The position numbers and the translations under genes were made by a program. Below, piece by piece: positions 7,140-36,637 of a stretch of 38,249 nucleotides of DNA. Origin of the DNA: a virus. Positions within the stretch are counted from its first letter, which is position 1. Every line of letters begins with the position of its first letter. A model generated the notes under the pieces. It ran no database searches, was not told the DNA's origin, and saw nothing but the letters and a program-made list of their open reading frames with translations. The DNA is taken from positions 1 through 38,249 of IMG/VR virus record IMGVR_UViG_3300010885_019590. One strand, 5' to 3'.

Positions 7140-7154
7140 TAGACTACAAGTATG
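7140..7154 (+). promoter_or_regulatory. Leaderless promoter, TAGACT-N6-ATG
   Basis: TAGACT at 7140-7145, six bases, then the ATG at 7152. It is identical in hexamer and spacing to the sites before 5700 and 31275 and lies in the 12-base gap between two virion genes. No Shine-Dalgarno is present. Confidence 0.6.
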
Positions 7155-10100
7155 GCGAAGAAGCCAACCATCACCCATAAGCCTAAGGGCGGAACGCTAG
7201 CGCCACAGTATGGCGCGTCGATGACTCCCGCTTTTATTCAGAGTCACGTTGGTGCTGCTGAGCATCAGGCGCTAAAGGACCTGTATGCGCATCGTACGGG
7301 TGGTGGGGATATTACGACTCAGCCCGACCCGCAGGCGGCGCTTCATGCTGCTGGTTTGATTCATACGCCTAATATTGGTGATGTTCGCTTGACGCATCCA
7401 TCATATGGCGGTCATGCGCCCGTATATGCGAGTGCTGCGGATGCTATTGATGCTTTGAAGAAGAAGCCTAGTGGTGGTGGCGGGTTTTTGGATTCGGTTG
7501 GTGGTGCTCTTAGTTCTGCGGGGGGCGCGCTTGCTGATATTCCGGGTGCTATTGGGAGTATTCCTGTTGGTCCAGCGCTGCATTTGTTTAACCCAATGAC
7601 GCCTAGTGAAGAAAAGAAACTTCGAGCGTCCGGTTCGACGTTGTATGGGTCTAATCTTCTTGGTGGCGCTTTTGAAATGTACACCCGTCCGGGTAAAACG
7701 TTTAGTGATATGAAGAATATGGGGTTGGATACGACTGCGAGTGCGTCTTCGAAGTTGACGTATGACCAGTTGGTGAATCAGCAGAAGAATGCGGCTGATG
7801 CGCAGAAGATGAAGGCGTTTCTTAGTGCGGCTAAGGAGCATAATTCGGGGTCTGATATTCAGGCTGTTCAGGATCAGGTTGCGTTGGGGCCGTTGGGTAA
7901 GCGTAGCCGGTTTATGTTGTTGAAGTTGGCAAAGAAGAATGGTTGGGCGATTGCTGATCCTCGTCAGTATTCTGATGCGGATTTGGCTCGTCGTGCTTTT
8001 ACGATGTCTACGAATGCTGTTTCGGAGGCGCTTGCTAATGCTGCGCGGCAGGAGGGCCAGTTGGCTTCGTTGCCTGCTGGTCTTGTTTCTGTTGCTGGAC
8101 AATTGTTTGATGCGGCTAAGAATGGTGATATTCATAAGGTTGCGAGTATTGGTGAGCAGTTTGTGCAGCCGTATACTTATTATTGGAGTGATGTTCAGAA
8201 GCGCGGGTTTATGCCTGCGACGTCTGCGTTTATTCGTGAGCGTCCTGTGGATGCCGCATTGTTGGCGTCTGGTGCTCTTCATGTTTCGGGTAAGGGTGCT
8301 GGTGCTGCTACTCGTACTATTACGGGTGTTGGCGAGACGCTTCCGCAGCGTGCCATTGCTGCTGTTATTCCTGCTCCTGCTGAGGGGAGTCGGTTGGCTG
8401 CGTTGGGTGAGCGTGCGCGTGTTGGGCGTACGGTTAATGTGGAGCAGCCTCCGCTTCCGGGTCAGGCTCCGCTTGTTACCCGTACTGGTACTACAGGTTC
8501 TAATTTGTTTGGTACTTTGGCGTTGGACGCTAAGGCTTCGCTTGTTTCGCGCGGGTTGCGTTCTGATTCGTCGTTGTTTAGGGGTGCTGCTGAGCGGGTT
8601 GTTAGGAAGCAGTACGATAAGGCGCTTAGTCATATTGCTACTTCTACTGATGCGTCCGGTTTGGCGGCTACGGCACAGTTGCGTAAGTTTGGTGGGCAAC
8701 TTAGTTTTCATCAGCGTGAGCGTCTTATTGCCGAGTTGATGCGGTCTCCGACTGATGCTAGTGGCGCGCTTGTTTCGTTGGGGGATATTGCCAAGATTTG
8801 GTCTGATAAGGCGGCTGCTGCTACTGATAGGGCGCAGGCACAATTGTTTAAGGGTTACGCTGATAGGTATCAGCAACTTGCCGATGTTCCTCTTGACCAG
8901 AGTGTGATTGATGCTGCTCGTAATGTTGCTGCTCCGCTGGTTGCTAGGACGGACACTCTTGCTTCGAGCATGATTGATGCTATTCATGGGATGAGTGATC
9001 CGACGGGTCGTGGTCTTTCTCGTGTGTTTTCGATTAAGTTGCCGGGTCGTAAGAGTAAGGAAATTACTTATGCGGATCTTGCGCCTAATGATGTTATTGA
9101 TATTTCTGGTCCTAGGCCCGCTTCGGCAATAGGTTCTGCGGCAAATGGTGTTGAGAAGCACCCGCCGGTTCCGGCAATTGTTGATTCGATTACGCCTAAC
9201 GCTGACGGGTCGCTAACGATTCACCGTACAAACATTTTGGATCAGCATGATGTTGCTTCGATTACTGTGCAGCCTTCTGATATTGCCGTTAAGGTTGCGG
9301 CTGGTGTTGTCAAGGACAAGTATGTTCGAGACTTTCAGACGTTTGCTCAAGATTTTAATGCTCTTGTTCGGGGTACTAAGGTGCGCGAGCAGGGTCTTGC
9401 TAATGCTGGTGTTGCTCTTCGCAATGCGCCTCGTAGGGCGTTGCTTGCGCTTGATCGTAAGCGTATTCGCAAGGGGACAATGATTGCTTATGCTGCGCGC
9501 AAGATGGATGAGGCTCGTGCTGCGGGGTCGCTTAGTGGTGTTCGTAAGTATGCGCGTATGTATCGCGTTCACGTGCAGGCTTTGACGGTTATTCTTAGGC
9601 GTCAAGAGAAGGCGGCGCTTGCTCTTGGTGAGGGTGATCTTGCGGCTCAGTTGCGTAATGCTCGTATTGGTATTGCTAATACTGCGCGTAAGTATGGGAA
9701 TGATATTACTGAGGCTGATGTTAATGCGATGCTTCAAAATCGAGTGTTGGCTCAGGTTGAGTCGGGTGTTGTTACGCCTGCTGCGCTTCGTAATGTGCAG
9801 CAGCCTGATGCTGTTTCGTTGTTTGAGTCGGCTGCTCGTGTGGATCAGCAGGTTGGTGCGTTGCGTAAGTTGGAACAGCAATTGGTTGCCGAGCGTGCGG
9901 CTGCGCCTAGTGCGGCTCAGGCTAATGCTGCGGCTAAGCGGCTTGCTGAGGTTGATGCTGAGATTAAGTCTCTTGTTGAGCAGTCTCAGGCGGCTCGTGG
10001 CGCTCCTTCCGGGTTTGTTTCTGTGCTTGATAATGTTGAGACGCGTTTTGATGCTGTTCGTAAGGCTGACCAGTTTATTGGTAATCCTAAGGCTGCTGCT

Positions 10101-13100
10101 AATTTTGCTGACAAGTCTAAGGTTGCGTTGCCGAATGTTCTTCGTGTGCTTGGCGATCTTCGCAATAAGACCGATCAAGGCTTGCCGGTTAGTGCGGCTG
10201 ATGTTCAAGCGCTTGTTGCTGCCGAGGCAAGTCTTGTTAAGTTGGAGCGTACGCTTAATGGTTTGAAGTCGTATGCGCCGGATGCGCCGATTGTTAATGC
10301 TGGTAAAAAGACTGCTGCGTTGGCGATTGATACGAGTGTTTCTGGTGACTTGTTGGCGGCTGCTCAGAAGCGTGGAGAGTACGCTGCGACCCTTAACCAG
10401 ACTGTTGCGGATCGAGCGGCTGCGCCGCTTGCCACTGGGTCCAAGGTTGAGGGTTTGGTAACTAGCGTTATTCAAGATATGCGAAGCCGTTTTTGGAATA
10501 AAATTGATCCTACCTTTCGAGAACGTTATTCGGACAAGCGACCGGGGTGGGTTAGTGTTGAGTATGTCCGTGCTGGCGATTTGCGCGGTATGGAGGGTAA
10601 CGCTGTTAGTGATGCAAAAGTTCGCGCTTTGCGTGGGCAAGAATATAACAATCCAATTATTCTTGATTACGACCCAAATACTGGGTATGGGTACGTAAGC
10701 GAAGGGAACCACCGCTTGGCAGCGGCAACGGACAATCAGTTTGTTCCCGTTCAGGTTATTTCGTCAAAACTTATTGACCCAGAAAACTTGTCGGCATCGC
10801 AAATTGGTGCTGGTATGGATAAGATTCCAATGCGTAAACTTACTGATCGGGGTGTGCTTGTCGATCAGAGCAACTACGTTCCGACATACATTTATCCTCA
10901 CGAAATTGGGCTTTCTGTTAGCGAGTCTATTGTTGGGGTTGGCAAGCCTTCCCTTCGTCCAATTTCAAGTGGCCCTGTTTCGATTGTGACTGTGCGTAGG
11001 TTGCGGCGCGAGGCTGAGCACGCTTCGAAGATGATGAGGAATGAGGCTATTCGTATTATGAAGCGTGGTCGTCCCGTACTTGCGACTCCTCAAATTAGTG
11101 CGGCTCTTGATGCTGCGAGTGGTAGTATTGCCGTGACGTTGCAGTTGGAAAAGAATGTTGTGTTTACAATGAAGCGTTTGCGGGGCGAGTCTGAGGCTGC
11201 GTTTGTTGCGCGTGGTGAGATGCTTATGTATGTTCCGACTGCGGTTAAGGTTACGGGTCGTCGGGCGCGTCGTGCTGCTGAAACTAAGAACATTGATGCC
11301 CTTGCAGGGGCTGGTCTTCCCAAGGGGCGGCTTATGAAAAACACTGGCGCACAGTATGCGGCTGGTCAAGAGGATCTTGCTAATTTGTTTAGGCGTTCTA
11401 TTGGTGCTGCTGGCGCGATTGTTGGTAGTCATAATTGGACGCAGCAGATGCGGGGCTTTCTTGATGCGTCTTTTTATCATGGCAATATTGGAACTGATGT
11501 TTTTAATGAGATCACGCAGACGGCTAATGATTGGGTTGTGTTTTCTGCTGATCGTCGTATCAGTATTCCTAACGATATTCATGTTGGTTCTGCCTCGTTG
11601 GAGAACATGCCAAATGCCTCTCTTGCAGACTTGTTTTCTCGTGTAGTGGGCGAAGAAAAGAACTCTGCTTTGATTGCTGCTGGTGGGGATTATTATGTGA
11701 TTCCACGCTACTTGTATGAGGATATGACAAAGAAGTTGGCTGATATTTCTTATCGGCCTACTGGCGGGCTGGCTGTTGCGGACAAGATGACTAGGGTGTG
11801 GCGTACGTTTACGCTAAACATTATTCCTCGTACGGGTACGGCAAACCTTGGTGGTAGCGCGATTCTTGCGGCTCTTGCCGGGTGTGGTCCGCGCGCGTTC
11901 TATATGGCGTACAAGGAGTTGTGGCACGATCTTGGTACTGCGCCAAAGTATTTGCAGCAGGGCTATGGTGCGCAGTTTACGAACGAGGCGTCGTTTGCGG
12001 GTATTCGCAGTCGGCTTCCCACGGCAAGTATTCCGGTTCCGGGTCTTAAGGCTGGGCTTAGTTTAGATATTCCGTTTGCGGCTTTGGCGTGGTGGATGAA
12101 TACGATGCGTCGCTTTAACGGCATCAGTGAAGACTTTGGTCGTCTCGCTGTCTATTATTCGAAGGCTATCCCCGCTGCTGAGCGTGCGACTAATACGTCG
12201 TTCTGGACGAGTGGCAGGATTCTTAGCAATGAGGCGCAGAAGTATTTGGAGATGCTTGCTGCTGAGGTGCCAAACAATCCGGCTATTGCTGAGCAGGCTG
12301 CTGCGTTTACGGATCATGCTTTTCAATGGTTGGGTGATCTTCATGCGGGCGGTTCGGCTAATACAACGCTGCGTATTCTTATTCCGTTCCACCAGTGGTA
12401 CCGTCATATTATTCGTTTGACGTTTGTAACGATGCCGCTTCATTATCCGGGGCGCGCATTGTTCTTGCAGCGTTTGGGTGATCTTGGTCACGAGTATCTG
12501 ATTGCTCATGGTGTGTATCCGGGCTGGATGATGGATGTGCTCCCAATCATGATGGAAGAAAAAATGATTAATAATGTTCCGCAGCAGTACATCATGGCGT
12601 GGCATACGGGTTCCCTTAATCCGTTCTCGACAACGGCACAACTTGCTAGTGGCACGGACACGCAGGCCATTAATTGGCTTGCTGGCATGGCTAACCCGAT
12701 GATTAAGGGCATGTTTGAGATTGGGTTTAGTGCCATTCAGGGTGGTGGTGGCAAGGCGCAGCAGATTGGTGGTGCTCATTTGTTGCAGGACGTTAAGAAT
12801 CAGGATGGTAATCCGATTGGTGCGTACACGGGTGAAGGGTTGCAGTATTACTTGAATACGGTGCAGCAGATGATGCCGTTGTCTACGCTTGCGGTGACTA
12901 CTTCTGGTCAGGCTGCTGATGGTAACTTGTTGTGGAACCAGTCGGATAAGTTGTTGCGTGGTTCGGGTGGTGCAATGCCGTTGAAGTTTCGTCCGCAGCA
13001 GGCCGTTGGTGATGTTCCGGGCCGCGACTTGTTGCAATTGGTGACTGACTTTTCTTCGAATAATGCTTTGGCCATGACTGCGCGCATGTTGTTTGGCGGT

Positions 13101-13304
13101 TCGCCTACGTGGATCACGAGTCATGGTCCGGTTGAGAAGTCGCAGTTTGCTGCGGCTATGAATAATCTAATTGCGACGTATAAGAAAGAGTTGCGCAATA
13201 CGATGAAGACGAAGAATATTATTTCTCAACAGATGAACTCTGGTCAGCCGGTTGCGCCTGTAGTTGAAATGCAAGCGCCAGCGATTGCGAATCCTAATGG
13301 GTAA
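7152..13304 (+). CDS. Giant internal virion (ejection) protein with ParB-like domain
   Basis: 2050 residues, the largest gene. The N-terminal half is helical with Ala/Gln/Lys coiled coils (around residues 700-870 and 890-960). Residues about 1097-1210 hold a ParB/sulfiredoxin-like domain: a VSVEYVRAGDLR strand, a PIILDYD strand, and the signature EGNHRLAAA at 1184-1192, the conserved GxxR-type nucleotide-binding loop. The C-terminal third is helical with hydrophobic stretches (for example ILAALAGCGPRAFYMAY) and may interact with membrane. Such multidomain proteins are known as polyvalent or ejected proteins that enter the cell with phage DNA. It sits last in the virion gene run, as T7 gp16-type proteins do. 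Codon style changes sharply across the ParB-like domain. Confidence 0.65.
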   Translation: MAKKPTITHKPKGGTLAPQYGASMTPAFIQSHVGAAEHQALKDLYAHRTGGGDITTQPDPQAALHAAGLIHTPNIGDVRLTHPSYGGHAPVYASAADAIDALKKKPSGGGGFLDSVGGALSSAGGALADIPGAIGSIPVGPALHLFNPMTPSEEKKLRASGSTLYGSNLLGGAFEMYTRPGKTFSDMKNMGLDTTASASSKLTYDQLVNQQKNAADAQKMKAFLSAAKEHNSGSDIQAVQDQVALGPLGKRSRFMLLKLAKKNGWAIADPRQYSDADLARRAFTMSTNAVSEALANAARQEGQLASLPAGLVSVAGQLFDAAKNGDIHKVASIGEQFVQPYTYYWSDVQKRGFMPATSAFIRERPVDAALLASGALHVSGKGAGAATRTITGVGETLPQRAIAAVIPAPAEGSRLAALGERARVGRTVNVEQPPLPGQAPLVTRTGTTGSNLFGTLALDAKASLVSRGLRSDSSLFRGAAERVVRKQYDKALSHIATSTDASGLAATAQLRKFGGQLSFHQRERLIAELMRSPTDASGALVSLGDIAKIWSDKAAAATDRAQAQLFKGYADRYQQLADVPLDQSVIDAARNVAAPLVARTDTLASSMIDAIHGMSDPTGRGLSRVFSIKLPGRKSKEITYADLAPNDVIDISGPRPASAIGSAANGVEKHPPVPAIVDSITPNADGSLTIHRTNILDQHDVASITVQPSDIAVKVAAGVVKDKYVRDFQTFAQDFNALVRGTKVREQGLANAGVALRNAPRRALLALDRKRIRKGTMIAYAARKMDEARAAGSLSGVRKYARMYRVHVQALTVILRRQEKAALALGEGDLAAQLRNARIGIANTARKYGNDITEADVNAMLQNRVLAQVESGVVTPAALRNVQQPDAVSLFESAARVDQQVGALRKLEQQLVAERAAAPSAAQANAAAKRLAEVDAEIKSLVEQSQAARGAPSGFVSVLDNVETRFDAVRKADQFIGNPKAAANFADKSKVALPNVLRVLGDLRNKTDQGLPVSAADVQALVAAEASLVKLERTLNGLKSYAPDAPIVNAGKKTAALAIDTSVSGDLLAAAQKRGEYAATLNQTVADRAAAPLATGSKVEGLVTSVIQDMRSRFWNKIDPTFRERYSDKRPGWVSVEYVRAGDLRGMEGNAVSDAKVRALRGQEYNNPIILDYDPNTGYGYVSEGNHRLAAATDNQFVPVQVISSKLIDPENLSASQIGAGMDKIPMRKLTDRGVLVDQSNYVPTYIYPHEIGLSVSESIVGVGKPSLRPISSGPVSIVTVRRLRREAEHASKMMRNEAIRIMKRGRPVLATPQISAALDAASGSIAVTLQLEKNVVFTMKRLRGESEAAFVARGEMLMYVPTAVKVTGRRARRAAETKNIDALAGAGLPKGRLMKNTGAQYAAGQEDLANLFRRSIGAAGAIVGSHNWTQQMRGFLDASFYHGNIGTDVFNEITQTANDWVVFSADRRISIPNDIHVGSASLENMPNASLADLFSRVVGEEKNSALIAAGGDYYVIPRYLYEDMTKKLADISYRPTGGLAVADKMTRVWRTFTLNIIPRTGTANLGGSAILAALAGCGPRAFYMAYKELWHDLGTAPKYLQQGYGAQFTNEASFAGIRSRLPTASIPVPGLKAGLSLDIPFAALAWWMNTMRRFNGISEDFGRLAVYYSKAIPAAERATNTSFWTSGRILSNEAQKYLEMLAAEVPNNPAIAEQAAAFTDHAFQWLGDLHAGGSANTTLRILIPFHQWYRHIIRLTFVTMPLHYPGRALFLQRLGDLGHEYLIAHGVYPGWMMDVLPIMMEEKMINNVPQQYIMAWHTGSLNPFSTTAQLASGTDTQAINWLAGMANPMIKGMFEIGFSAIQGGGGKAQQIGGAHLLQDVKNQDGNPIGAYTGEGLQYYLNTVQQMMPLSTLAVTTSGQAADGNLLWNQSDKLLRGSGGAMPLKFRPQQAVGDVPGRDLLQLVTDFSSNNALAMTARMLFGGSPTWITSHGPVEKSQFAAAMNNLIATYKKELRNTMKTKNIISQQMNSGQPVAPVVEMQAPAIANPNG

Positions 13305-13357
13305 CGACACTTATTGTAGGTACTACTTACTATCAGAGGTTTCTGTTGTTGTTAGGC

Positions 13358-13439
13358 TTGATGATTATCTTTATGGACTAAATCATCAAACCGTATGTGA
13401 TAGGGCATAATGGTTATGGTCCCCCCCCAAACCCCCCCC
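13358..13439 (+). promoter_or_regulatory. Composite element copy 1: hairpin plus paired C8 tracts
   Basis: A perfect 9-bp inverted repeat, TTGATGATT at 13358-13366 and AATCATCAA at 13381-13389, encloses a 14-base loop starting ATCTTTA. Thirty-one bases later come two runs of eight C (13421-13428 and 13432-13439) separated by AAA. The same arrangement occurs at 26562-26641. It lies between the virion genes and the lysis genes. On the opposite strand the runs satisfy a G-quadruplex pattern. Function is unknown. Confidence 0.6.
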
Positions 13440-13451
13440 TACCTTATATGA
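13410..13451 (+). CDS. Possible 13-residue leader peptide over the C-tracts
   Basis: ATG at 13410 opens a frame of 13 codons that runs through both C8 tracts (Pro-Pro-Gln-Thr-Pro-Pro) and ends in a TGA overlapping the ATG at 13448 (ATGA). AGGG at 13402-13405 is a weak ribosome binding site. It could couple translation to the hydrolase gene, or could be chance. Confidence 0.3.
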   Translation: MVMVPPQTPPYLI

Positions 13452-14095
13452 ACATTCCTAACTTGTCAAACTCGAAGATGCTCGCGGTTCGTCAGAACTT
13501 GCAGACGTTGGAGAAGCAGGCGCATATTAGAGTGCCGGGTATTGACGTGCCCGTTCAGGTTGATACAAAGATTCCCGATCTTGTTCAACAGAACGCACAA
13601 TCATTATTGAACGCGCCGTCTACGCCGATGGGTAGGCTTCGCTCCCCTAAGGCCAAGGCGGGCGCTAGTGGTGCCGTTACCGCGACCGGCAAGGCGCTTG
13701 GGTATTCGAATGACATTCCGATTCCCCCCACGTCAAGGATTGGTGCGGCTGTTGTTCGGGGTGGCCTTCAGTTGCGTGGCATTCCGTACGTGTGGGGCGG
13801 AGAGTCTACGTCGGGGTTTGATTGTTCTGGCCTGACGCAATACCTGTATAAAAAAATGGGTGTTAATATTCCACGCGTAACGTACGACCAGTTTCGCGCA
13901 GGAACACCCGTACCAGTTAACGCTATGCGTCCCGGCGACCTCGTGTTTTTTCACATGGGACCACAAGGCCCCGGACATGTTGGTATATTTGTTGGCAACG
14001 GAAAGTTCTTGCAAGCCCCCCAGACTGGTGATGTTGTGAAAATTAGTGACCTTAGTTCTGCCAGTGGGCTTGTTGGCGTAAGAAGGTTCGGATGA
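13448..14095 (+). CDS. NlpC/P60-family peptidoglycan hydrolase
   Basis: 215 residues from ATG 13448. A C-terminal NlpC/P60 cysteine peptidase domain covers about residues 100-215. PYVWGG and FDCSGL give the nucleophile C126, GHVGIF gives H177, and the third polar residue is probably Q189 in FLQAPQ. These enzymes cut peptide bonds of peptidoglycan (for example D-Glu to diaminopimelate). The N-terminal 95 residues have no recognised domain. An upstream GTG at 13397 is in frame and would add 17 residues encoded by the C-tracts. I prefer 13448 because the C-tract element is non-coding at its second location. It may act as a lysin or as a virion wall-degrading protein, since it directly follows the ejection protein. 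Confidence 0.85.
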   Translation: MNIPNLSNSKMLAVRQNLQTLEKQAHIRVPGIDVPVQVDTKIPDLVQQNAQSLLNAPSTPMGRLRSPKAKAGASGAVTATGKALGYSNDIPIPPTSRIGAAVVRGGLQLRGIPYVWGGESTSGFDCSGLTQYLYKKMGVNIPRVTYDQFRAGTPVPVNAMRPGDLVFFHMGPQGPGHVGIFVGNGKFLQAPQTGDVVKISDLSSASGLVGVRRFG

Positions 14096-14334
14096 GTGAC
14101 GACGGCGCACAAGTCATCTTGTATCGTTTGGCGTTGATGGAAAAGACGCTAACCGCTATTCACGAAGAAGTGAAGCGCACGAACGGTCGCGTGACGGGCC
14201 TAGAGATGCTTAACGCTGAGGAAACTGGTGGAATTAAAGCACGGTATATGCAGCGAGTTATCCTTACCACGATTCTTAGTGGCGTTCTTCTTACTGCGAT
14301 TATTTGGTTTGGCGGCCATGTTGTTACAAGTTAA
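14092..14334 (+). CDS. Coiled-coil membrane protein (holin-accessory / XhlA-like)
   Basis: 80 residues. The first 50 form a charged helix (YRLALMEKTLTAIHEEVKR and on), and residues about 55-75 form a single membrane segment (VILTTILSGVLLTAIIWFGG). This design matches XhlA-type or holin-accessory proteins found beside phage lysins. Its ATG overlaps the stop of the NlpC/P60 gene (ATGA), and AAGAAGG upstream can serve as ribosome binding site. Confidence 0.65.
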   Translation: MSDDGAQVILYRLALMEKTLTAIHEEVKRTNGRVTGLEMLNAEETGGIKARYMQRVILTTILSGVLLTAIIWFGGHVVTS

Positions 14335-14359
14335 AATAGGATTCTACGCATAGGCGTGG

Positions 14360-14386
14360 TAGTCTTGTGGCGTAAGCAACGAGGAG
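14360..14386 (+). promoter_or_regulatory. Extended -10 promoter with leader and SD
   Basis: TGG-TAGTCT (hexamer at 14360-14365) resembles the TAGACT promoters elsewhere, but here it is followed by a leader of about 20 bases with GAGGAG at 14381-14386, five bases before the ATG at 14392. This marks the endolysin start. Confidence 0.5.
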
Positions 14387-14391
14387 ATAAC

Positions 14392-15129
14392 ATGAGAACA
14401 CTGACGCTAACTACGCCACTTACACGTGGCCCTTCCGTTGGGCTTGCCCAGCAGACGCTAAAGAATCATGGTTATTTTGTTGGGCAGATTGACAAAGTAT
14501 TTGGAGAGATCACTGCTCGTGCTTGTAGCGAGGCTAAGTACAAGTTGGGTTACGCGACCAAAGATATTAAGCCGACGTATGGTAACGATCTTGAAGCGTA
14601 CTTGACGGGTAAGAAGAAGCCGAATCCGTTTATGCGGGTTCGTGCTGCGCAGCGCGCTAAAAAGAAGCCGCTTGCTGATGCTGTTATTAGTGTTGCTCGC
14701 CAGTACATTGGCGTAAAAGAATCACCACCCAACTCTAACCGCGTCATGTTCTCCGATTGGTACGGCATTGTTGGTCCGTGGTGTGCCATGTTTGTAACGT
14801 ATTGTTTTGTTACGGCTGGCAGCAAGGCTTTTGAAAAGGGCAATAGGTACGCTTACTGTCCGTTTGTCCTTGACGCGGCAAGGCACAACCTTGGTATGCG
14901 CATCATTGGGGAACACGAGGCGTCTAGGGGAGACATTGTTTTGTTCTGTTGGGATGGTTCTGGCGTACCGCAACATATTGGCATTGTCCTTACACCGGTC
15001 ACTCCGTCTGGCACATTCACAACCATCGAGGGAAACACTAGCGGAAACTCTCCTGCTGATGGTGGAGAAGTTGCCATTCGAAACCAGACCACTAGCGTTG
15101 TTGTTGCCTTCATCCGAGTCGTTAAGTAA
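14392..15129 (+). CDS. Endolysin: peptidoglycan-binding domain plus CHAP amidase/endopeptidase
   Basis: 245 residues. Residues 8-75 form a PG_binding_1-like three-helix domain (VGLAQQTLKNHGY and FGEITARA). Residues about 95-245 form a CHAP domain: PWCAMF with nucleophile C131, PQHIGIV with H195, and TIEGNTSG as the third site. CHAP enzymes cleave amide bonds in peptidoglycan. The start at 14392 is set by GAGGAG five bases upstream; an upstream in-frame GTG at 14356 overlaps the promoter and has no such site. No signal peptide is present, so release would need one of the neighbouring membrane proteins. Confidence 0.88.
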   Translation: MRTLTLTTPLTRGPSVGLAQQTLKNHGYFVGQIDKVFGEITARACSEAKYKLGYATKDIKPTYGNDLEAYLTGKKKPNPFMRVRAAQRAKKKPLADAVISVARQYIGVKESPPNSNRVMFSDWYGIVGPWCAMFVTYCFVTAGSKAFEKGNRYAYCPFVLDAARHNLGMRIIGEHEASRGDIVLFCWDGSGVPQHIGIVLTPVTPSGTFTTIEGNTSGNSPADGGEVAIRNQTTSVVVAFIRVVK

Positions 15130-16057: not shown

Positions 16058-16237
16058 ATGAATCTGAATCCAAAAGTTGGGGCAGCAGCAATCGGTGCTG
16101 CGGTGACCTTAGTGATTGTCTTCGTAATGGGCCAGTTGGGAGTGACGATCCCAGCGGACGTTGCAAGTGCAGTGACTCTAATCGTGAGTGTCGCTGCGGC
16201 GTACCTGAAGACGGCAAATGACTGGACCGCACGATAA
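16058..16237 (+). CDS. Holin-like small membrane protein
   Basis: 59 residues with two hydrophobic helices, about residues 8-28 (Ala/Val/Ile) and 33-50, joined by a short turn, and a short charged tail. This is the size and layout of class II holins of Gram-positive phages. GGGGGAGG lies six bases upstream of the ATG. The position beside the endolysin and another membrane protein supports a role in lysis timing. Confidence 0.65.
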   Translation: MNLNPKVGAAAIGAAVTLVIVFVMGQLGVTIPADVASAVTLIVSVAAAYLKTANDWTAR

Positions 16238-16400
16238 CGAGTTAGCGAGCATGGCTCGTGATGTTCGATGGGCGTTGGATGCGCTTCGCGCGGGCGAACC
16301 GGAAATGGCGGAGCGCATCCTAACGCATTGCTTCGAAACGTATGTGCTGATTCGAGCGGGAGAACCCGAACGACTTGCGCAACGCGCGAAGAACATGTAG
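16218..16400 (+). CDS. Hypothetical 60-residue helical protein
   Basis: Overlaps the end of the holin-like gene by 20 bases in another frame. The product is helical and charged (DVRWALDALRAGEPEMAERILTH is one amphipathic region) with no membrane segment. A later ATG at 16251 is possible. Its base composition is like the surrounding genes. Function unknown. Confidence 0.5.
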   Translation: MTGPHDNELASMARDVRWALDALRAGEPEMAERILTHCFETYVLIRAGEPERLAQRAKNM

Positions 16401-21365: not shown

Positions 21366-21835
21366 GCAAACTTGCAGTAGGACTAGACGTAAGCCCTCTC
21401 CGTATCGGTTGGGCTGTCGTAACAGACGAACTAGAACCAACAGCACATGGCGTAATCCTATTCAAACCAAAAGAATGGGTCACTCCGGGAATGCGCGCAG
21501 AAGCAATGGAAGACGCGCTCGGAGACTTCAAGATCGACCACGTTGGCTCAGAAGCAGTGTTCGTTGGCATCAACAAACTAGGCAGCATTAGGGCAGCAAT
21601 GGCACTAGGACAAGTCGAAAGCATTGCCGACTACTTGTGGCCCGACTCTGACCAGAAAGTCCTTACCGCTACACAGTGGCGAGCAGCGTGTGGTATCAAA
21701 CAGGGCGGCAAAGAACCCGTCATGGAGTGGTCTACAAACATTTGCAAACAATACGAAATAGACGCACCGGAGAATCAAGATGCCGCAGACGCTATCGCCA
21801 TCGCATACGCAACAATTATCTGGCACCGTGGATGA
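21362..21835 (+). CDS. RuvC-like Holliday junction resolvase
   Basis: 157 residues with an RNase H-like fold. D9 in VGLDVSPLRIGWAV, E64 after a hydrophobic strand (SEAVFVG), then the helix LGSIRAAMALGQVESI, and D140/D143 in NQDAADAIAIA make the four acidic residues of RuvC-type resolvases. It would cut four-way junctions or branched replicating DNA before packaging. It fits with the annealing protein, nuclease and SSB upstream. ATGA overlap sets the start. Confidence 0.85.
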   Translation: MSKLAVGLDVSPLRIGWAVVTDELEPTAHGVILFKPKEWVTPGMRAEAMEDALGDFKIDHVGSEAVFVGINKLGSIRAAMALGQVESIADYLWPDSDQKVLTATQWRAACGIKQGGKEPVMEWSTNICKQYEIDAPENQDAADAIAIAYATIIWHRG

Positions 21836-22340
21836 GCACTGGCTCGACCGAGCAATAGAAGACAAACTCGGCGAAGTCATTGACAAGTATCGCGCACAAG
21901 GACAACCAGTCAACAGTGTTGGAGCGTTACGCATCCGCGTTGCCGCAGACATCAACGGGCTGCGCGGCGGCGCGGGCTGGGCAGCACTAAAACACAGGTA
22001 CGATCCGACACCAACCGTTGTCCTAGCGTGGTGCACGGCGTGCGACAAGCCACTTAGCAGAGGCGGCGTGTCTGCGTGGCTAGAGGACACGCGCGGATGG
22101 GTGTTCTGCTCAATCGAATGCCAACAAGACGACAAGCGCCACCCAATCCCATTCTCAGAGTTCAAGAGGAGAGTGAGAGATAAAGGCGAAGTGTCATCGA
22201 ACAGGCTCGACATCGTACAGGGACAACTCGTACTAGGCGAAAAGATCACAGTCACATGGGATCAAATCAAGAACCAAGGCAACCCCATTGATGATTCGAT
22301 TAGCATCATCAAGCCTGATGATGAGATTATCTGGGACTAG
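21828..22340 (+). CDS. Hypothetical zinc-binding protein
   Basis: 170 residues from GTG 21828, which overlaps the resolvase end by eight bases; an ATG at 21780 lies deeper in the resolvase and is less likely. The N-terminal 60 residues are helical. CTACDKPL near residue 70 and FCSIEC about 25 residues on form a treble-clef-like four-cysteine site. The C-terminal part is charged with a short acidic end. Function unknown; DNA or nucleotide metabolism by context. Confidence 0.65.
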   Translation: MDEHWLDRAIEDKLGEVIDKYRAQGQPVNSVGALRIRVAADINGLRGGAGWAALKHRYDPTPTVVLAWCTACDKPLSRGGVSAWLEDTRGWVFCSIECQQDDKRHPIPFSEFKRRVRDKGEVSSNRLDIVQGQLVLGEKITVTWDQIKNQGNPIDDSISIIKPDDEIIWD

Positions 22341-22462: not shown

Positions 22463-22653
22463 CTGATTGGCTAAAAGAAGCAACAGTGTCGCTCGACAAA
22501 GCAATGGCACAATGGGAAGAGTTAGAGTGGATGGAAGGGTTGCCGGGTGGCGCGCGGTGTAGTACGGAAAAGCGCGTTCGCTGCGCTCTTCTTATAGCGT
22601 ATGAAGAGGGGCTAAATAACGCAAACCGGCAGCACAAGGAGAAGAACGCATGA
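22459..22653 (+). CDS. Hypothetical 64-residue helical protein
   Basis: AGGAGG lies upstream of the ATG and the ends overlap neighbours. Charged amphipathic helices, two cysteines, no known motif. Confidence 0.6.
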   Translation: MTDWLKEATVSLDKAMAQWEELEWMEGLPGGARCSTEKRVRCALLIAYEEGLNNANRQHKEKNA

Positions 22654-22940
22654 GCACCATCGTTGAACCATTGAGCCAATCGTCCTTGTATCGCACCATG
22701 TGGCGCAGCATCATGCACGCCACAGGTAACGAAGAAGCAACTGACGCAATCATGCTCAGCATCATCGACACCCACCCACACTTGTCTGAGGTGTGGGACA
22801 ACAACACTTGCCGATCCTGCAAAGCAATCCTCAGCGGACTCGACAAAGCAGAAGCATCGCCGTACTGTGAGTGTTGCCGCAGCATCGAAGACCCACCAGA
22901 ATACTACGACCGCAACATCAAAATGTACGGCGGCGAATAA
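22650..22940 (+). CDS. Hypothetical 96-residue zinc-ribbon protein
   Basis: The N-terminal half is helical. The second half has CRSC and CECC separated by about 15 residues, which should bind zinc. ATGA and TAATG overlaps tie it to both neighbours. Confidence 0.6.
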   Translation: MSTIVEPLSQSSLYRTMWRSIMHATGNEEATDAIMLSIIDTHPHLSEVWDNNTCRSCKAILSGLDKAEASPYCECCRSIEDPPEYYDRNIKMYGGE

Positions 22941-25110: not shown

Positions 25111-25193
25111 CGCGCGCAGAATTATTGAGAACGTTACAGCCCGGAACGATAGTCACAATGACGGAGCGAATCGGGGAATGGGTGACGGCATGA
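25107..25193 (+). CDS. 28-residue peptide
   Basis: A short frame with ATGA overlaps at both ends (RAELLRTLQPG and a beta-like end). The overlap pattern supports translation; function unknown. Confidence 0.4.
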   Translation: MTRAELLRTLQPGTIVTMTERIGEWVTA

Positions 25194-25435
25194 ACGCGGG
25201 CGAATCGTTCGCAGACTGGTTGGCCGTCATCGTGGCGTCAGACGATCCCGCAAACGGTGGAGCAGGTCTGCTTACCCTCACAGACTGCGCGAAGTGCGAC
25301 GGCTACGGCATCGTGGAACACTCGCACCGTAGCGGGATGCGGCTAGTGCCCTGCCCTAAGTGCAACGGGAAAGGGGAACCGGCTAGCGTGGCGAACGTGA
25401 CAGCGAACGCCAACGAAACGGAGACCCAATGCTAG
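25190..25435 (+). CDS. DnaJ-type zinc-finger small protein (paralog A)
   Basis: 81 residues from the ATG overlapping the previous stop. Two CXXCXGXG units, CAKCDGYG (C33, C36) and CPKCNGKG (C55, C58), match the zinc hairpins of DnaJ without the J domain. The first cysteines of the two units are 22 residues apart, and V-E-x-S-H follows the first. A minus-strand gene at 26044-26238 has the same spacing and VE-x-SH, so the two are probably diverged copies. Confidence 0.65.
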   Translation: MNAGESFADWLAVIVASDDPANGGAGLLTLTDCAKCDGYGIVEHSHRSGMRLVPCPKCNGKGEPASVANVTANANETETQC

Positions 25436-25685: not shown

Positions 25686-25880
25686 CTAGTCGTCAGAACA
25701 ATTCATGCACTTGGCGTCAGCGCCGCAAGCGTACGCCGTCCGGTAGTGCTCACAAGACTCGCACACGTCACCGTCGTCCGTCGCGGACATTTCGGCGGCG
25801 TCCGCCATTGCCGAATACTCAGCCGAGCGCGCATCCGCCCGCTGAGTCCATTCCGCCAGTGTTTCGCGCGTGCGGCTCAT
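25686..25880 (-). CDS. Cysteine-rich small protein, 64 aa
   Basis: Last gene of the minus-strand trio. The first half is a charged helix with many Ala; the second has CESC, then C and CMNC, a likely zinc site. Its ATG overlaps the stop of the gene before it (ATGA). Function unknown. Confidence 0.6.
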   Translation of the reverse strand: MSRTRETLAEWTQRADARSAEYSAMADAAEMSATDDGDVCESCEHYRTAYACGADAKCMNCSDD

Positions 25881-26047
25881 GCCTTCACCCCCTCAGGGCG
25901 ATAGTCGCTGGGCCAATAGCCGAGCGCGTCGAAGTGCCGGTTTGCGTTCTGCTTTTCCGCCCACTTGATGAGGTCGGCTTCCTGTTTTGCGACGTACGCT
26001 TCGCGGGCTTCGCGGGCTTCGCGGGCTTCGGTGTCGGCGGGGATCAT
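25877..26047 (-). CDS. 56-residue protein with REA tandem repeats
   Basis: ATG overlaps the stop of the upstream gene. The N-terminus carries three Arg-Glu-Ala units encoded by a 9-bp tandem repeat, continuing into a charged helix (YVAKQEADLIKWAEKQNA). It ends in GVKA, as does the upstream protein. Function unknown. Confidence 0.55.
   Translation of the reverse strand: MIPADTEAREAREAREAYVAKQEADLIKWAEKQNANRHFDALGYWPSDYRPEGVKA
26000..26030. repeat. 9-bp tandem repeat, about three and a half copies
   Basis: TTCGCGGGC repeats in tandem, encoding Arg-Glu-Ala units on the minus strand. It is a candidate for copy-number variation. Confidence 0.75.
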
Positions 26048-26238
26048 GCCTTCACCCCCGCAAGCCACGCCGCAAACGCCGGGGAAAAATGCTCCCGCGT
26101 ATCCACCAGACCGCGCCCATCACAATCGCCGCACTCCATGAGGTCATCAGCCTCAGGGTGCGAGCACTCCACAAAGCCCTTCCCCGCACAGCGCTCGCAG
26201 TAGGCGAACCCTTCGATCGTGTTCCGTGTTCCGCTCAT
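26044..26238 (-). CDS. DnaJ-type zinc-finger small protein (paralog B)
   Basis: First gene of the minus-strand trio, 64 residues. CERCAGKG (C14, C17) and CGDCDGRG (C36, C39) form two zinc hairpins of DnaJ type, with the 22-residue spacing and VE-x-SH of the plus-strand paralog at 25190. A GGGAGG site lies eight bases before the ATG inside a small inverted repeat. The C-terminus (FAAWLAGVKA) is helical. Longer in-frame starts upstream lack a binding site. Confidence 0.65.
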   Translation of the reverse strand: MSGTRNTIEGFAYCERCAGKGFVECSHPEADDLMECGDCDGRGLVDTREHFSPAFAAWLAGVKA

Positions 26239-26255: not shown

Positions 26256-26561
26256 CGGGCACGCCAGCGGCGCACCCCAGTAGTTTGATTACACCTACAA
26301 CACTACAGCACCAACACGCCACACGCAACACAAAGAGACACACGAGGAAAGCCCGGCTGTCTTGTGGGGGTACGAGTGTTCGCGCGATGCGATGCGGTGG
26401 GCGTGCCGCGAATCGTCGACCCTGCACCTAGCCACCCCGCACGCACCTCATCAACACACCACACGCAGTGACCCAACCCCCCCGCCGCGCGACGCGACCA
26501 CCGTAGACGTAGGGTTTGTTTTGTTGTGGGTATGTTTTCTATATGGGCTTGTTCGGGTGGT

Positions 26562-26641
26562 TTGATGAATCTTTAGATGATTTTCATCAGACACATTTGC
26601 TGTAGTAGATGTGGTTTTCTGCTCCCCCCCTAGTCCCCCCC
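26562..26641 (+). promoter_or_regulatory. Composite element copy 2: hairpin plus paired C7 tracts
   Basis: TGATGAA (26563-26569) and TTCATCA form an inverted repeat with a 13-base loop, and ATCTTTA lies at its left arm and loop. Two runs of seven C (26624-26630 and 26635-26641) follow, separated by TAGT. From TTGATGA to the first C run is 62 bases here and 63 in copy 1 at 13358. It precedes the packaging module. Confidence 0.6.
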
Positions 26642-26722
26642 TCGTGGGGCCGCGTTTTGGGTGCGGTGTGTTCTTGTTGCGACTTGTCTGGTTGTCGCTG
26701 GCAGCAATCCGTTGGTGTGCTT

Positions 26723-26754
26723 TGCACGATATTTCGTGTGTATGCACGATATTT
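26723..26754. repeat. Pair of TGCACGATATTT repeats, possible operators
   Basis: TGCACGATATTT occurs at 26723-26734 and 26743-26754, exactly 20 bases apart (about two helical turns). The first copy extends to a palindrome, CACGA-TATT-TCGTG. This suits a dimeric regulator binding in tandem about 100 bases upstream of the packaging genes. Confidence 0.55.
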
Positions 26755-26831
26755 GGTGAGGGTTGGGCATTGCTGCGCCGATGCCCCTCTGACGGGCGAT
26801 CTCCGCTTGTGGGGCGGGTTGCTTCTGATTG

Positions 26832-26846
26832 TATCATGTTGTTATG
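26832..26846 (+). promoter_or_regulatory. Leaderless promoter, TATCAT-N6-ATG
   Basis: TATCAT at 26832-26837, six bases, then the ATG at 26844. No ribosome binding site. First promoter of the packaging module. Confidence 0.6.
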
Positions 26847-27014
26847 GGTGATGATGATTTTTATGGGTGGTCGGAGTGGGTGTTTCGTTGTGTGTTTGAG
26901 GATTCTCCTCGTCGTGTGTTGCGTGTCTTTGCTGCGTGCGAGTATGATGCGTGGGTGTCGTTTAGTTTGTTGACTGGTATTAGGGTTAATCTTGAAGGGT
27001 TGGAGCACTGGTGA
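26844..27014 (+). CDS. Small acidic-start protein before TerS, 56 aa
   Basis: MGDDD start followed by an aromatic-rich helix (WSEWVFRCVFE) and a second helix. Its TGA overlaps the GTG of the TerS-like gene. The leaderless promoter fixes the start. Unknown function; packaging-related by position. Confidence 0.6.
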   Translation: MGDDDFYGWSEWVFRCVFEDSPRRVLRVFAACEYDAWVSFSLLTGIRVNLEGLEHW

Positions 27015-27571
27015 CGAAGCGTGCGGATTTGAAGCAGGTTCGGGATGATAAGGCTGTGTTGGAGGATTCGTATGGTCTTGGTAAGGATGATTTTCTTGTG
27101 AAGAATTATTTGCCGTCGCGTACTATTGGCGAGTTGTCGGTTGAGCAGATGGATGAGGCTATTGAGATGGCGCGTCTTGGTGCGTTTGAGGCGGCTATTG
27201 CGCGTGTGCTTGGTGTTGATGAGGCTGTGTTTTTGTCGGCTTTGAAGAAGGGGAAGGATGGTAAGACGGGGCATGGTGGTACGAGTGTTGAGCGTGTCAA
27301 GTTTGCTCGTAAGTTTTATGATGCTCGTAAGGAGCATATGAAGAAGAATCTGAGGATTATTAGTGAGGCGGCTGATGAGGGTGATTGGAAGCCTGCGGCG
27401 TGGCAGTTGGAGCGTTCGTTTGGGTTTCATAAGCAGGAGCGTGTGGAGGTTGAGGCTGGTCCACAGATTTTGTCGTTGATGCAGTTGGCTCAGATCCCGA
27501 TTGAGGAGGCTCGTGCTGCGTTGGAGATTCCTAGTGAGAATGTTATCGTTGAGTCTGATGGTGCGGCGTGA
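27011..27571 (+). CDS. Terminase small subunit-like protein
   Basis: 186 residues. A helix-turn-helix lies around residues 57-85 (GAFEAAIARVLGVDEAVFLSAL), a central charged helix follows, then DWKPAAWQLERSFGFHKQERV, the WxxAAWxLER motif common to small terminase subunits. TerS binds the packaging site and loads TerL. Position two genes before terL agrees. A general DNA-binding regulator of similar build is the alternative. Confidence 0.65.
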   Translation: MTKRADLKQVRDDKAVLEDSYGLGKDDFLVKNYLPSRTIGELSVEQMDEAIEMARLGAFEAAIARVLGVDEAVFLSALKKGKDGKTGHGGTSVERVKFARKFYDARKEHMKKNLRIISEAADEGDWKPAAWQLERSFGFHKQERVEVEAGPQILSLMQLAQIPIEEARAALEIPSENVIVESDGAA

Positions 27572-28090: not shown

Positions 28091-29671
28091 GTGGACGACC
28101 AGCAGCGCCAAGCATTAGAGTTACGCACCAAAATGGCGGACCCAGTGTGGAAAGCCAAGAACCTGTTTGGTTTTGATCCGTGGAGTAAACAACAAGAAAT
28201 CCTCAAAGCCCTCCGCAAACACAAGCGTGTTGCTGTGCGGAGTTGCCACGGAATTGGAAAGACGGCCACTGCTGCCACTGCTGTTCTAGATTTTATGACA
28301 GAAGGACCATGCCGCGTAATCACTACCGCACCAACGTGGAGTCAGGTCGAGCAACTCCTCTGGCGCGAAATAGCGGTACGCCACTCCAAGATCCCCGGCG
28401 GCAAAGACGCCTTCGGCAAAATGTTCAAGTCGAGCCTTGAAGTTAGGTCGGACTGGTTCGCTATGGGACTTTCGACGGATAAGCCTGAAAGATTCCAAGG
28501 TCATCATGCCCCTCGTATGATGCTCGTCGTTGACGAAGCAAGTGGCATTGATGAGGCTATCTACGAAGCGTCCGAGGGTTTCCTTACCGCTGATGAAGCG
28601 CGCGTACTCTTGATTGGGAACCCGACTAGGCCAGCGGGAACGTTCTATAAGGCGTTCCAAAAGGATTCTAATTGGTATCAGGTTCATGTTAGTGCGTTTG
28701 ATGCTCCTTGTTATACGGGCGAACGAGTGTCTAAAGAGGCCGAACGCGCCCTAATTACGCAAGAATGGGTGCAGGACGCCAAACAACAGTGGGGTGAAGA
28801 CTCTGCTGCGTACAAGATTCGCGTTTTGGGCGAGTTTTCGGAAACAACGGGACGCCAATACTTCCAATTTTTAGAAAAAATCGTCCCAACAGAGCCAAGA
28901 AAACGCGGTTTTGTGCGCGGAATGCCCGTTCCCGGCGGCAGAGTAGAGTTTTATGATGATTCTAAGGGTGGAATGCGCATGTGGGAGTTGCCAAAAACAG
29001 GCGTAGGCTACCTAATTTTTGCGGATGTTGCGGGATCAGTGTCATTTGACGAGTATGAACGTCGAGAATCACGTATTGGGTCGGGTGCGGGGTCGGATTA
29101 CTCTGTAGCAGAAGTGCTACGCCAAGATACTGGCGAGCAGGTAGCCGAAATCCGGTATCGGGCCAACGTAGACGAGTTTGCAGATGATCTCGCCCGATTA
29201 GGACGCCTCTATAATGATGCAATAATCGCAGTAGAACGCAACGGACCGGGAACGGCCGTCCTAACCCAACTAAAGAACACAATGGGGTACCCGCGCATCT
29301 GGCGTCCACGCAATCCCATCGGCGTAAACTCGAATCTAGACCTAACGCTAGGCTGGAACACGACAAGCGCCACAAGGCCCCTGATGCTAAGCGCTTTGCA
29401 GGCTGCCATTCGTGACGAGCCACACCGAATTAAAAGCGAAGCGCTTATTGATGAGATTCGCACGTTCGTATTCCGCGACCGTAATGGCAAGGAGCCGCGC
29501 CCAGAGGCAGACGAGGGTTGTCACGATGATCTTGTGATGGCGATGGGTGGTGCGCAGGCTGTGTGGCAGCAAGAGTGCACTACGCCTATCAGGTTGGCGG
29601 AACGTAAGAAGCCTGAGCCGCAGTCTAATCTTCAGAAGCGCGCGCCACGTTTTGTTCTTGGGAAGCGTTAG
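28091..29671 (+). CDS. terL: Terminase large subunit
   Basis: 526 residues. ATPase domain: SCHGIGKT at 51-58 is the Walker A loop (Ser in place of the usual first Gly), MMLVVDEAS at 143-151 is Walker B with D148/E149, and LLIGNPTR at 173-180 is the coupling motif. The nuclease domain begins near LIFADVAG, continues with AVERNGPG and ends with EGCHDDLVMAMG, giving the acidic residues of the RNase H-like site. It drives DNA into proheads and cuts concatemers. GGAG five bases before the GTG sets the start. Codon use is more A/C-rich in the first two-thirds than in the end of the gene. Confidence 0.93.
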   Translation: MDDQQRQALELRTKMADPVWKAKNLFGFDPWSKQQEILKALRKHKRVAVRSCHGIGKTATAATAVLDFMTEGPCRVITTAPTWSQVEQLLWREIAVRHSKIPGGKDAFGKMFKSSLEVRSDWFAMGLSTDKPERFQGHHAPRMMLVVDEASGIDEAIYEASEGFLTADEARVLLIGNPTRPAGTFYKAFQKDSNWYQVHVSAFDAPCYTGERVSKEAERALITQEWVQDAKQQWGEDSAAYKIRVLGEFSETTGRQYFQFLEKIVPTEPRKRGFVRGMPVPGGRVEFYDDSKGGMRMWELPKTGVGYLIFADVAGSVSFDEYERRESRIGSGAGSDYSVAEVLRQDTGEQVAEIRYRANVDEFADDLARLGRLYNDAIIAVERNGPGTAVLTQLKNTMGYPRIWRPRNPIGVNSNLDLTLGWNTTSATRPLMLSALQAAIRDEPHRIKSEALIDEIRTFVFRDRNGKEPRPEADEGCHDDLVMAMGGAQAVWQQECTTPIRLAERKKPEPQSNLQKRAPRFVLGKR

Positions 29672-29687: not shown

Positions 29688-29876
29688 AAGCAGCCCGTTC
29701 CCGAATCGCAATACAAAGAAGGCAACTTTAAGAAACTTGCTGCGAGTCTTGCGAAGAAAGGTACTCGTGACCCGAATGCGCTTGCTGCTTGGATTGAGCG
29801 TCGCAAGTATGGCGCTAAGGGATGGAAGCATATTCAGGCTAAGGGTCGTGCTGCTGCGAAGGCAAAGGGCAAGTAA
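29685..29876 (+). CDS. Basic 63-residue protein
   Basis: Lys/Arg/Ala-rich. The segment DPNALAAWIERRKYGAKGW resembles a short helical motif found in many small phage proteins encoded near terminase or head genes. The leaderless promoter fixes the start at 29685; an earlier in-frame ATG lies inside terL. Its stop overlaps the Dps-like ATG. It may bind DNA. Confidence 0.6.
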   Translation: MKQPVPESQYKEGNFKKLAASLAKKGTRDPNALAAWIERRKYGAKGWKHIQAKGRAAAKAKGK

Positions 29877-30556
29877 TGGCTCCGATTGACCGCATCAAAA
29901 AAAAGAACAACACAACCATTAGTATCGCGCTAATGAAAATGAAGCCCATGTCGCACGACAAAGCACAAATGGATGCCATGTCGAATCCGCAAAGCGACAT
30001 GAACATGTCCATGCAGAACGACACAAACAATACGGACGCAACGCCAACCAAAAACACTACACCCCGAAACGCAACACCAACCGACACAAACCAAAACGAT
30101 ACTCAAAGTGGAACAAACACCACCAATACGGGGCCAGAAACGCAAGGCGCGCTTGCCGTTGAACTACAAGACTTGTTAGATAATGTCTCTGAGTATTACA
30201 TTACTGCTCACCAGTTTCACTGGAACGTTGTCGGCCCAGACTTTGCAGAGTTCCACAAGTTCTTTAATAAGATTTATAATGATGCGTGGAATTCGCTCGA
30301 TGGACTTGCGGAGAATATTCGCAAACTAGACCAGATGGTTGATATTCAGTTTGGTCAACCAGACCAGTGCAATAATGTGCAAGAAATGCTTGGTTGCCTT
30401 AGCGACATGAACACGGCGCTTATTGACCAGTACAAGAATACGATTGATTGTGCCGATAAGTATCGAGAACAAGGCATTCTTAATTTTCTTGCTGATCGTC
30501 TCGATACGCATCAGATGTTTCAGTGGCAAATTAGTTCGTTCCTTAAGTCGGCATGA
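29876..30556 (+). CDS. Dps-like ferritin with long disordered N-terminal extension
   Basis: 226 residues. Residues 91-226 match the Dps four-helix bundle: HQFHWNVVGPDF, then EFH, then LDGLAENI. H115, H127, D142 and E146 fall at the spacing of the ferroxidase residues H51, H63, D78 and E82 of E. coli Dps; the residue matching D67 is N131. Dps proteins form dodecamers that oxidise iron and bind DNA. The first 90 residues are unusual: basic start, Met-rich middle, then Asn/Thr-rich low complexity. ATG overlaps the previous stop. The location between terL and portal suggests it is made with virion parts and may be packaged. Codon style of the extension is A/C-rich, unlike the ferritin domain. Confidence 0.85.
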   Translation: MAPIDRIKKKNNTTISIALMKMKPMSHDKAQMDAMSNPQSDMNMSMQNDTNNTDATPTKNTTPRNATPTDTNQNDTQSGTNTTNTGPETQGALAVELQDLLDNVSEYYITAHQFHWNVVGPDFAEFHKFFNKIYNDAWNSLDGLAENIRKLDQMVDIQFGQPDQCNNVQEMLGCLSDMNTALIDQYKNTIDCADKYREQGILNFLADRLDTHQMFQWQISSFLKSA

Positions 30557-36603: not shown

Positions 36604-36637
36604 CTGGGAGAGTCGCCAATGGTGGCGGCTCTCCCAG
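36604..36637 (+). terminator. Strong hairpin after the capsid gene
   Basis: A 14-bp stem with one T:G wobble, CTGGGAGAGTCGCC and GGCGGCTCTCCCAG, and a six-base loop, 10 bases past the stop. No T-run follows, so it may stabilise the capsid mRNA 3' end or act as a partial terminator. Confidence 0.65.

Follow-up and report, generated by a model that had tools for sequence, protein, structure and literature searches.

A hairpin and twin C-tract element that precedes both the lysis and the packaging genes in a family of uncultured phages

The HK022 antitermination RNAs putL and putR occur as two copies with two tandem hairpins (PMC9378689). The locus described here resembles them in layout, with two copies per genome of ~70-90 nt, two tandem hairpins, and positions near the starts of two transcription units. 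However, twin C tracts are not described for put, the put copies lie at early promoters, and here one copy (copy A) abuts a start codon. Like the lambda nut sites (boxA/boxB), the locus places a hairpin in a phage operon transcript, and a preliminary description of this DNA had proposed a nut-like site from the resemblance of the heptamer ATCTTTA to boxA. This heptamer is not conserved: relatives have ATCTTTT, TTTGATT, TTTGTTG, TTGTCTT and others in its position. We rejected a nut/boxA site because the relatives lack a conserved heptamer beside the hairpin. Pfam and PHROGs scans of most genes of the analysed DNA yielded no candidate for an N-like antiterminator, a class of short and divergent proteins.

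In CsrB/CsrC sponge RNAs and autogenous translational operators, a non-coding RNA shares one motif with the ribosome-binding site in the leader of an mRNA. The same arrangement is likely here, but with a single motif copy per RNA, which is C-rich, rather than the GGA hairpins of CsrB/CsrC. GOLLD, ROOL and similar large phage RNAs in Rfam are likewise conserved structured RNAs of environmental phages, whereas the RNA that contains our second copy (copy B) is ~270 nt and has no Rfam 15 match at the gathering threshold.

An element shared by two late modules

The window, the whole 38,249-nt stretch analysed, is a complete IMG/VR phage record (IMGVR_UViG_3300010885_019590) with a 123-base terminal repeat, and its + strand carries the late genes. 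Copy A lies between a 2050-aa ORF (7152-13304) and a lysis cassette, which consists in order of an NlpC/P60 peptidoglycan hydrolase gene (MNIPNLS..., 13448..14095, + strand; Pfam PF00877, E 1.5e-29), a gene for an 80-aa protein that is probably holin-like, having one C-terminal hydrophobic stretch (14092..14334, + strand), and a CHAP plus PG_binding_1 endolysin gene (14356..15129, + strand). Copy B is flanked upstream by short leftward ORFs (25686-26238) and is followed by the first late gene (56 aa, 26844..27014, + strand), which lies 3' of the copy-B RNA, and then by the genes for the terminase small subunit (TerS, 27011-27571) and large subunit (TerL, 28091-29671). Within the packaging and structural module, 29876-30556 codes for a Ferritin/Dps-like domain protein, and the late operon contains a 15-bp terminator-like hairpin (36604-36637) immediately 3' of the major capsid gene.

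Each copy comprises a hairpin (H1), then ~30 nt, then a C7-8/N2-4/C7-8 tract. The motifs, coordinates, spacings and C runs given in the preliminary description proved correct at every base, and the pattern far exceeds what chance would give. TTGATGA and ATCTTTA occupy 13358-13364 and 13367-13373 in copy A, where CATCA lies in the right arm, and 26562-26568 and 26569-26575 in copy B; the first C run follows TTGATGA by 63 bases in copy A and 62 bases in copy B. The pattern C7-N2..6-C7 matched only the two copies in the window, and 100 shuffles gave a mean of 0.02 matches. At both sites, 28-32 nt separate H1 from the tract in all relatives but one (L011), which has ~40 extra nt containing a self-contained hairpin. 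Tract starts are 10 or 11 bases apart in every copy because the spacers are TAGT or TTT in copy B and AAA, AA or TA in copy A, with tracts of 7+7 or 8+8.

A TerL search retrieved 45 viral contigs with 82-100% identity, all of them from metagenomes and belonging to uncultured, mostly freshwater phages. Copy B was present in nearly all TerL relatives that extend far enough upstream, and the near-complete relatives (TerL 82-95%) each carry the element exactly twice at corresponding places; besides the window, eight long records (G001-G007, G009) have the twin tract at exactly two places. Comparison among these genomes thus establishes the duplication, the positions of the copies and their joint presence. 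The covariance-model search suggested earlier agreed with this: R2, a model of the shared module built from the copies in the window and its relatives, matched twice per long record, once in three shorter fragments, and nowhere in G013. Unrelated phages, including those with bare twin C tracts, scored at most 18 bits with R2, and a weak third match in the window (17.9 bits) was the copy-A hairpin read on the opposite strand. G013 (58% TerL), the single outgroup, lacks both copies, and its NlpC gene begins at the end of the preceding gene, leaving copy A no space. Several relatives (L036, L030, L037, L038, L340) have tRNA genes adjoining TerL.

Hairpin and twin tracts are kept at both positions in relatives, as expected of the shared element that had been proposed to head the lysis and packaging modules. 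Random loss beside retained flanking genes had been named as the observation that would speak against it; the tracts were never lost in this way, but two lineages (L032 and L037/L035) have a copy B without the hairpin, so H1 may not be essential there.

Other searches added no members. To look for the host, 84,980 genomes were queried with TerL and with the 3' block; no relative came up, the 3' block giving only scattered matches in unrelated organisms. We found no close cultured phage, and an NlpC/P60 protein search for extra copy-A loci gave no additional close relatives. Two other queries of viral contigs were discarded: the hairpin heptamers alone retrieved mostly unrelated phages in a chance-like manner, and the double C tract alone retrieved this phage family plus scattered others, the latter at or below 18 bits in R2.

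Covariation establishes a structure at the RNA level. The H1 hairpin (copy A: GGCTTGATGATT ... AATCATCAAACC, 13355..13392, + strand, 72.1 bits with R2; copy B: 26559..26592, + strand, 68 bits) has ten possible pairs, of which 88.8% are formed across 24 copies and four have changed on both sides. None of 500 shuffles equalled its covariation score, and slid pairings scored lower. G.U outnumber A.C combinations 14 to 1 in the copy-B hairpin; copy A has 9 of each, so the RNA-strand argument is limited to copy B. The covariation of H1, this G.U excess and the location of copy B within a covarying RNA support an element that acts as + strand RNA at the heads of both modules. An intrinsic terminator, defined as a GC-rich hairpin plus T run, was not found, since no T run follows H1. 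A terminator scan did list the second hairpin of copy B (26592-26613, with a GTTTTCTGCT tail), but regional matches equalled the shuffled mean and a C run comes next instead. The G-quadruplex noted earlier on the opposite strand is literally present as a pattern: at both sites the minus strand reads G7-8/N3-4/G7-8, which fits the criterion of four G3 runs with short loops. Neither the shared element nor the RNA is described in databases (Rfam checked).

Copy A and the start of the lysis gene

Upstream of copy A, a block (TTGTAGGTACTACTTACT, 13314..13331, + strand) is partly conserved in an alignment of ten copies and possibly marks the transcript start region; a sigma-70 scan upstream of copy A did not find the consensus. 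Downstream of H1, folding predicts a second hairpin, P2 (13389..13415, + strand), whose 3' strand GGTT is an alternative partner for the right arm of H1. When the H1 right arm was paired with its own or a swapped strand preceding the C tract, the test gave p=0.003 for copy A and p=0.15 for copy B, and a column count for the same pairing (33/500) was suggestive at most. A switch, in which this arm would pair either within H1 or with that strand, is a lead supported by the swap test in copy A but not in copy B.

The twin tract of copy A reads C8-AAA-C8 (13421..13439, + strand). It is 8+8 in every intact relative, with a spacer of AAA, AA or TA. The NlpC/P60 gene starts 8 nt past the tracts in the window, and across all distinct lineages the start codon lies 8 nt after tract 2 where the spacer is AAA and 7 nt where it is AA or TA; the N-terminal residues are similar among these lineages. 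The second C run therefore fills the Shine-Dalgarno position. The gene itself has no Shine-Dalgarno sequence, which 16 of the 39 window genes have. Because the distance from tract to start codon is constrained, we infer that translation initiation is the step controlled at copy A. One relative's contig (L309, the G008 contig end) stops within the copy-A C tract, an indication that the element can interrupt assembly.

A structured RNA upstream of the packaging genes

On comparative evidence, copy B forms the 5' portion of an RNA of ~270 nt that had not been described before. This copy is preceded by a conserved block in the alignment (TTGTTTTGTTGTGGGTATGTTTTCTATATGG, 26511..26548, + strand) that looks like a promoter and may serve as one for copy B, while a sigma-70 scan did not recognise a promoter upstream of this copy. 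After H1 comes a predicted P2 (CACATTT...GATGTG, 26592..26613, + strand), the sequence of which differs among relatives, and then C7-TAGT-C7 (26624..26641, + strand). The copy-B tracts of relatives are 7+7 or 8+8, never mixtures, with TAGT or TTT as spacer, and the 7/7-8/8 change occurred at least 2 times on the TerL tree. A GGGG run (26646..26649, + strand) is a possible pairing partner for tract 2, and the run varies in length with the tracts in relatives (C7 with G3-4, C8 with G4-5), which suggests a C-G hairpin. No comparable G run is present at copy A. Another C7 tract, a single one (CCCAACCCCCCCG, 26473-26485), lies ~75 nt upstream of copy B and is conserved, G013 included.

The remainder of the RNA begins with a variable hairpin, H3 (26649..26667, + strand), and continues into a domain of four stem-loops with strong compensatory changes (H4-H7, 26676-26819). 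H4 (26679..26698, + strand) has a covarying stem, represented by nine different, largely complementary versions, and a conserved loop TTGNCTGNTY. Stem H5 (GCAGCAAT/ATTGCTGC, 26701..26776, + strand) carries GAGGG in its loop, which could form a pseudoknot with CCCTC of H6, the nearly invariant GCCCCTCTGACGGGC (26783..26797, + strand; one position A or G). The covarying hairpin H7 (TCCGCTTGTGGGGCGGG, 26802..26818, + strand) is possibly the 3' end. Standard pairs fill 93.3% of pair cells over 22 sequences, both sides have changed in 16 of 23 pairs, and the covariation is 0.496 compared with 0.158 for shuffled and 0.036-0.076 for slid pairings, in an alignment that was fitted to the model; the H4 stems are legible in the raw sequences. 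The + strand gave weak thermodynamic z-scores (mean -1.0) and the minus strand gave stronger ones (-2.35); the G/T-rich composition makes them hard to interpret, and covariation was used in their place. Searches of Rfam 15 left the copy-B RNA below the gathering threshold for every family; the only matches were to tRNAs and, at chance level, to a snoRNA.

The model found the 3' domain of G013, which was outside the training set, at E 3e-12. Because G013 has no twin C tracts, the H4-H7 domain is probably older than they are, and the RNA would therefore have a function independent of them. Beyond H7, a -10-like box (TATCAT, 26832..26837, + strand) is separated by 6 nt from the start codon of the first late gene. 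TANNNT boxes lie after H7 and 4-8 nt before ATG or GTG in 21 of 22 sequences, and the box is TATAAT in L336/G013. Boxes of this kind so near a start codon are typical of leaderless starts. Because of this box, we consider that the copy-B RNA is probably a separate transcript rather than a leader of the late mRNA.

Possible roles of the shared module

The reading that we put forward, tentatively and as something short of probable, is that the module is a docking site for one factor: at A it would control translation of the lysis genes, and at B it would be borne by a non-coding RNA. A factor common to both is the simplest assumption because the same module occurs on an mRNA leader at its ribosome-binding site and on a likely non-coding RNA, and the two are present or absent together. 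The module would be a duplicated RNA unit of a hairpin, ~30 nt with a second hairpin, and two unpaired runs of 7-8 C. Copy A would open the lysis mRNA as its 5' leader and lay the C tracts over the ribosome-binding region, and copy B would be the 5' domain of a separate structured phage RNA transcribed immediately ahead of the packaging operon. The docking factor could be a phage protein or a host binder of C-rich RNA (Rho, ribosomal protein S1 or a cold-shock protein). Bound at A, it would set the timing of lysis-gene translation; at B, the same site would tie the non-coding RNA to the factor, as competitor or effector, and lysis would be coupled to packaging. Where transcription starts and stops, which factor binds and in which direction control runs are suppositions of this scheme. 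Counting against it are the lack of H1 in copy B of two lineages, the equal G.U and A.C numbers in copy A, the single outgroup, the failure of a sigma-70 scan to recognise promoters upstream of either copy, and the probably greater age of H4-H7.

The chief rival, which we consider unlikely, is a put-like processive antitermination or anti-pausing, in which nascent tandem hairpins bind host RNA polymerase and cause terminator read-through in the long late operons, while the C tracts would pause the polymerase or form a highly stable RNA-DNA hybrid during folding. Two copies per genome heading two transcription units, each with two tandem hairpins, recall HK022 putL/putR (PMC9378689), and the strong terminator-like hairpin after the capsid gene (36604-36637) would give such a system something to read through. 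However, antitermination does not need copy A to be fixed to a start codon, and the first late gene seems to own a -10 box 3' of the copy-B RNA. That same tie to the start codon also speaks against a role at the DNA level, as do flanking structures that covary as RNA and, in copy B, contain G.U pairs. Such a role, which seems to us improbable, would involve a minus-strand G8-N3-G8 quadruplex, or a mirror-symmetric C tract acting as a triplex or as two protein sites one helical turn apart, and would stall polymerases or mark a replication or packaging site; the 10-11 bp between tract starts, the equal tracts (7/7 or 8/8) and their repeated joint switches on the TerL tree are all in its favour.

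Poly(C) is the classic ligand of Rho. Given this affinity and the location of both sites at module borders, the tracts might act as a rut-like landing site, or as a Rho decoy in the copy-B RNA, and set polarity at those borders. We regard this too as hardly likely, because rut sites are degenerate while lengths, spacing and hairpin are precisely kept here, and half of copy B tract 2 can pair with the G run. In every relative the terminase genes follow the copy-B RNA at a distance of a few hundred nt, which would also suit a packaging RNA like phi29 pRNA, with the C tracts a mere byproduct, but this leaves copy A unexplained, ordinary TerS and TerL are present, and there is no Rfam match; we hold it to be very improbable.

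The locus might also represent a phage regulatory RNA of a new class, although we consider this unlikely: a ~270-nt non-coding RNA whose hairpin and twin C tracts mimic, as a decoy, the ribosome-binding region of the lysis mRNA, and which would serve as a built-in lysis timer through a C-tract-binding factor and Shine-Dalgarno-free initiation. What is gained in any case is a strongly supported, undescribed structured RNA in uncultured phages seen in many metagenomes, connected to the lysis-gene ribosome-binding region by the same rigidly kept motif. If the link is functional, it would provide a simple RNA-based timing of lysis and a translation start at which a C tract stands in for the Shine-Dalgarno sequence. 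Among the conserved small early proteins, no convincing family was found as a candidate for the factor. Early proteins encoded at 16218-16400, 21780-22340 and 22650-22940 are shared by all the C-tract phages and absent from G013. An 85-aa zinc-binding protein (25178-25435), absent from some relatives, resembles the DnaJ zinc-finger and Anti-TRAP and is a possible candidate for an RNA-control protein.
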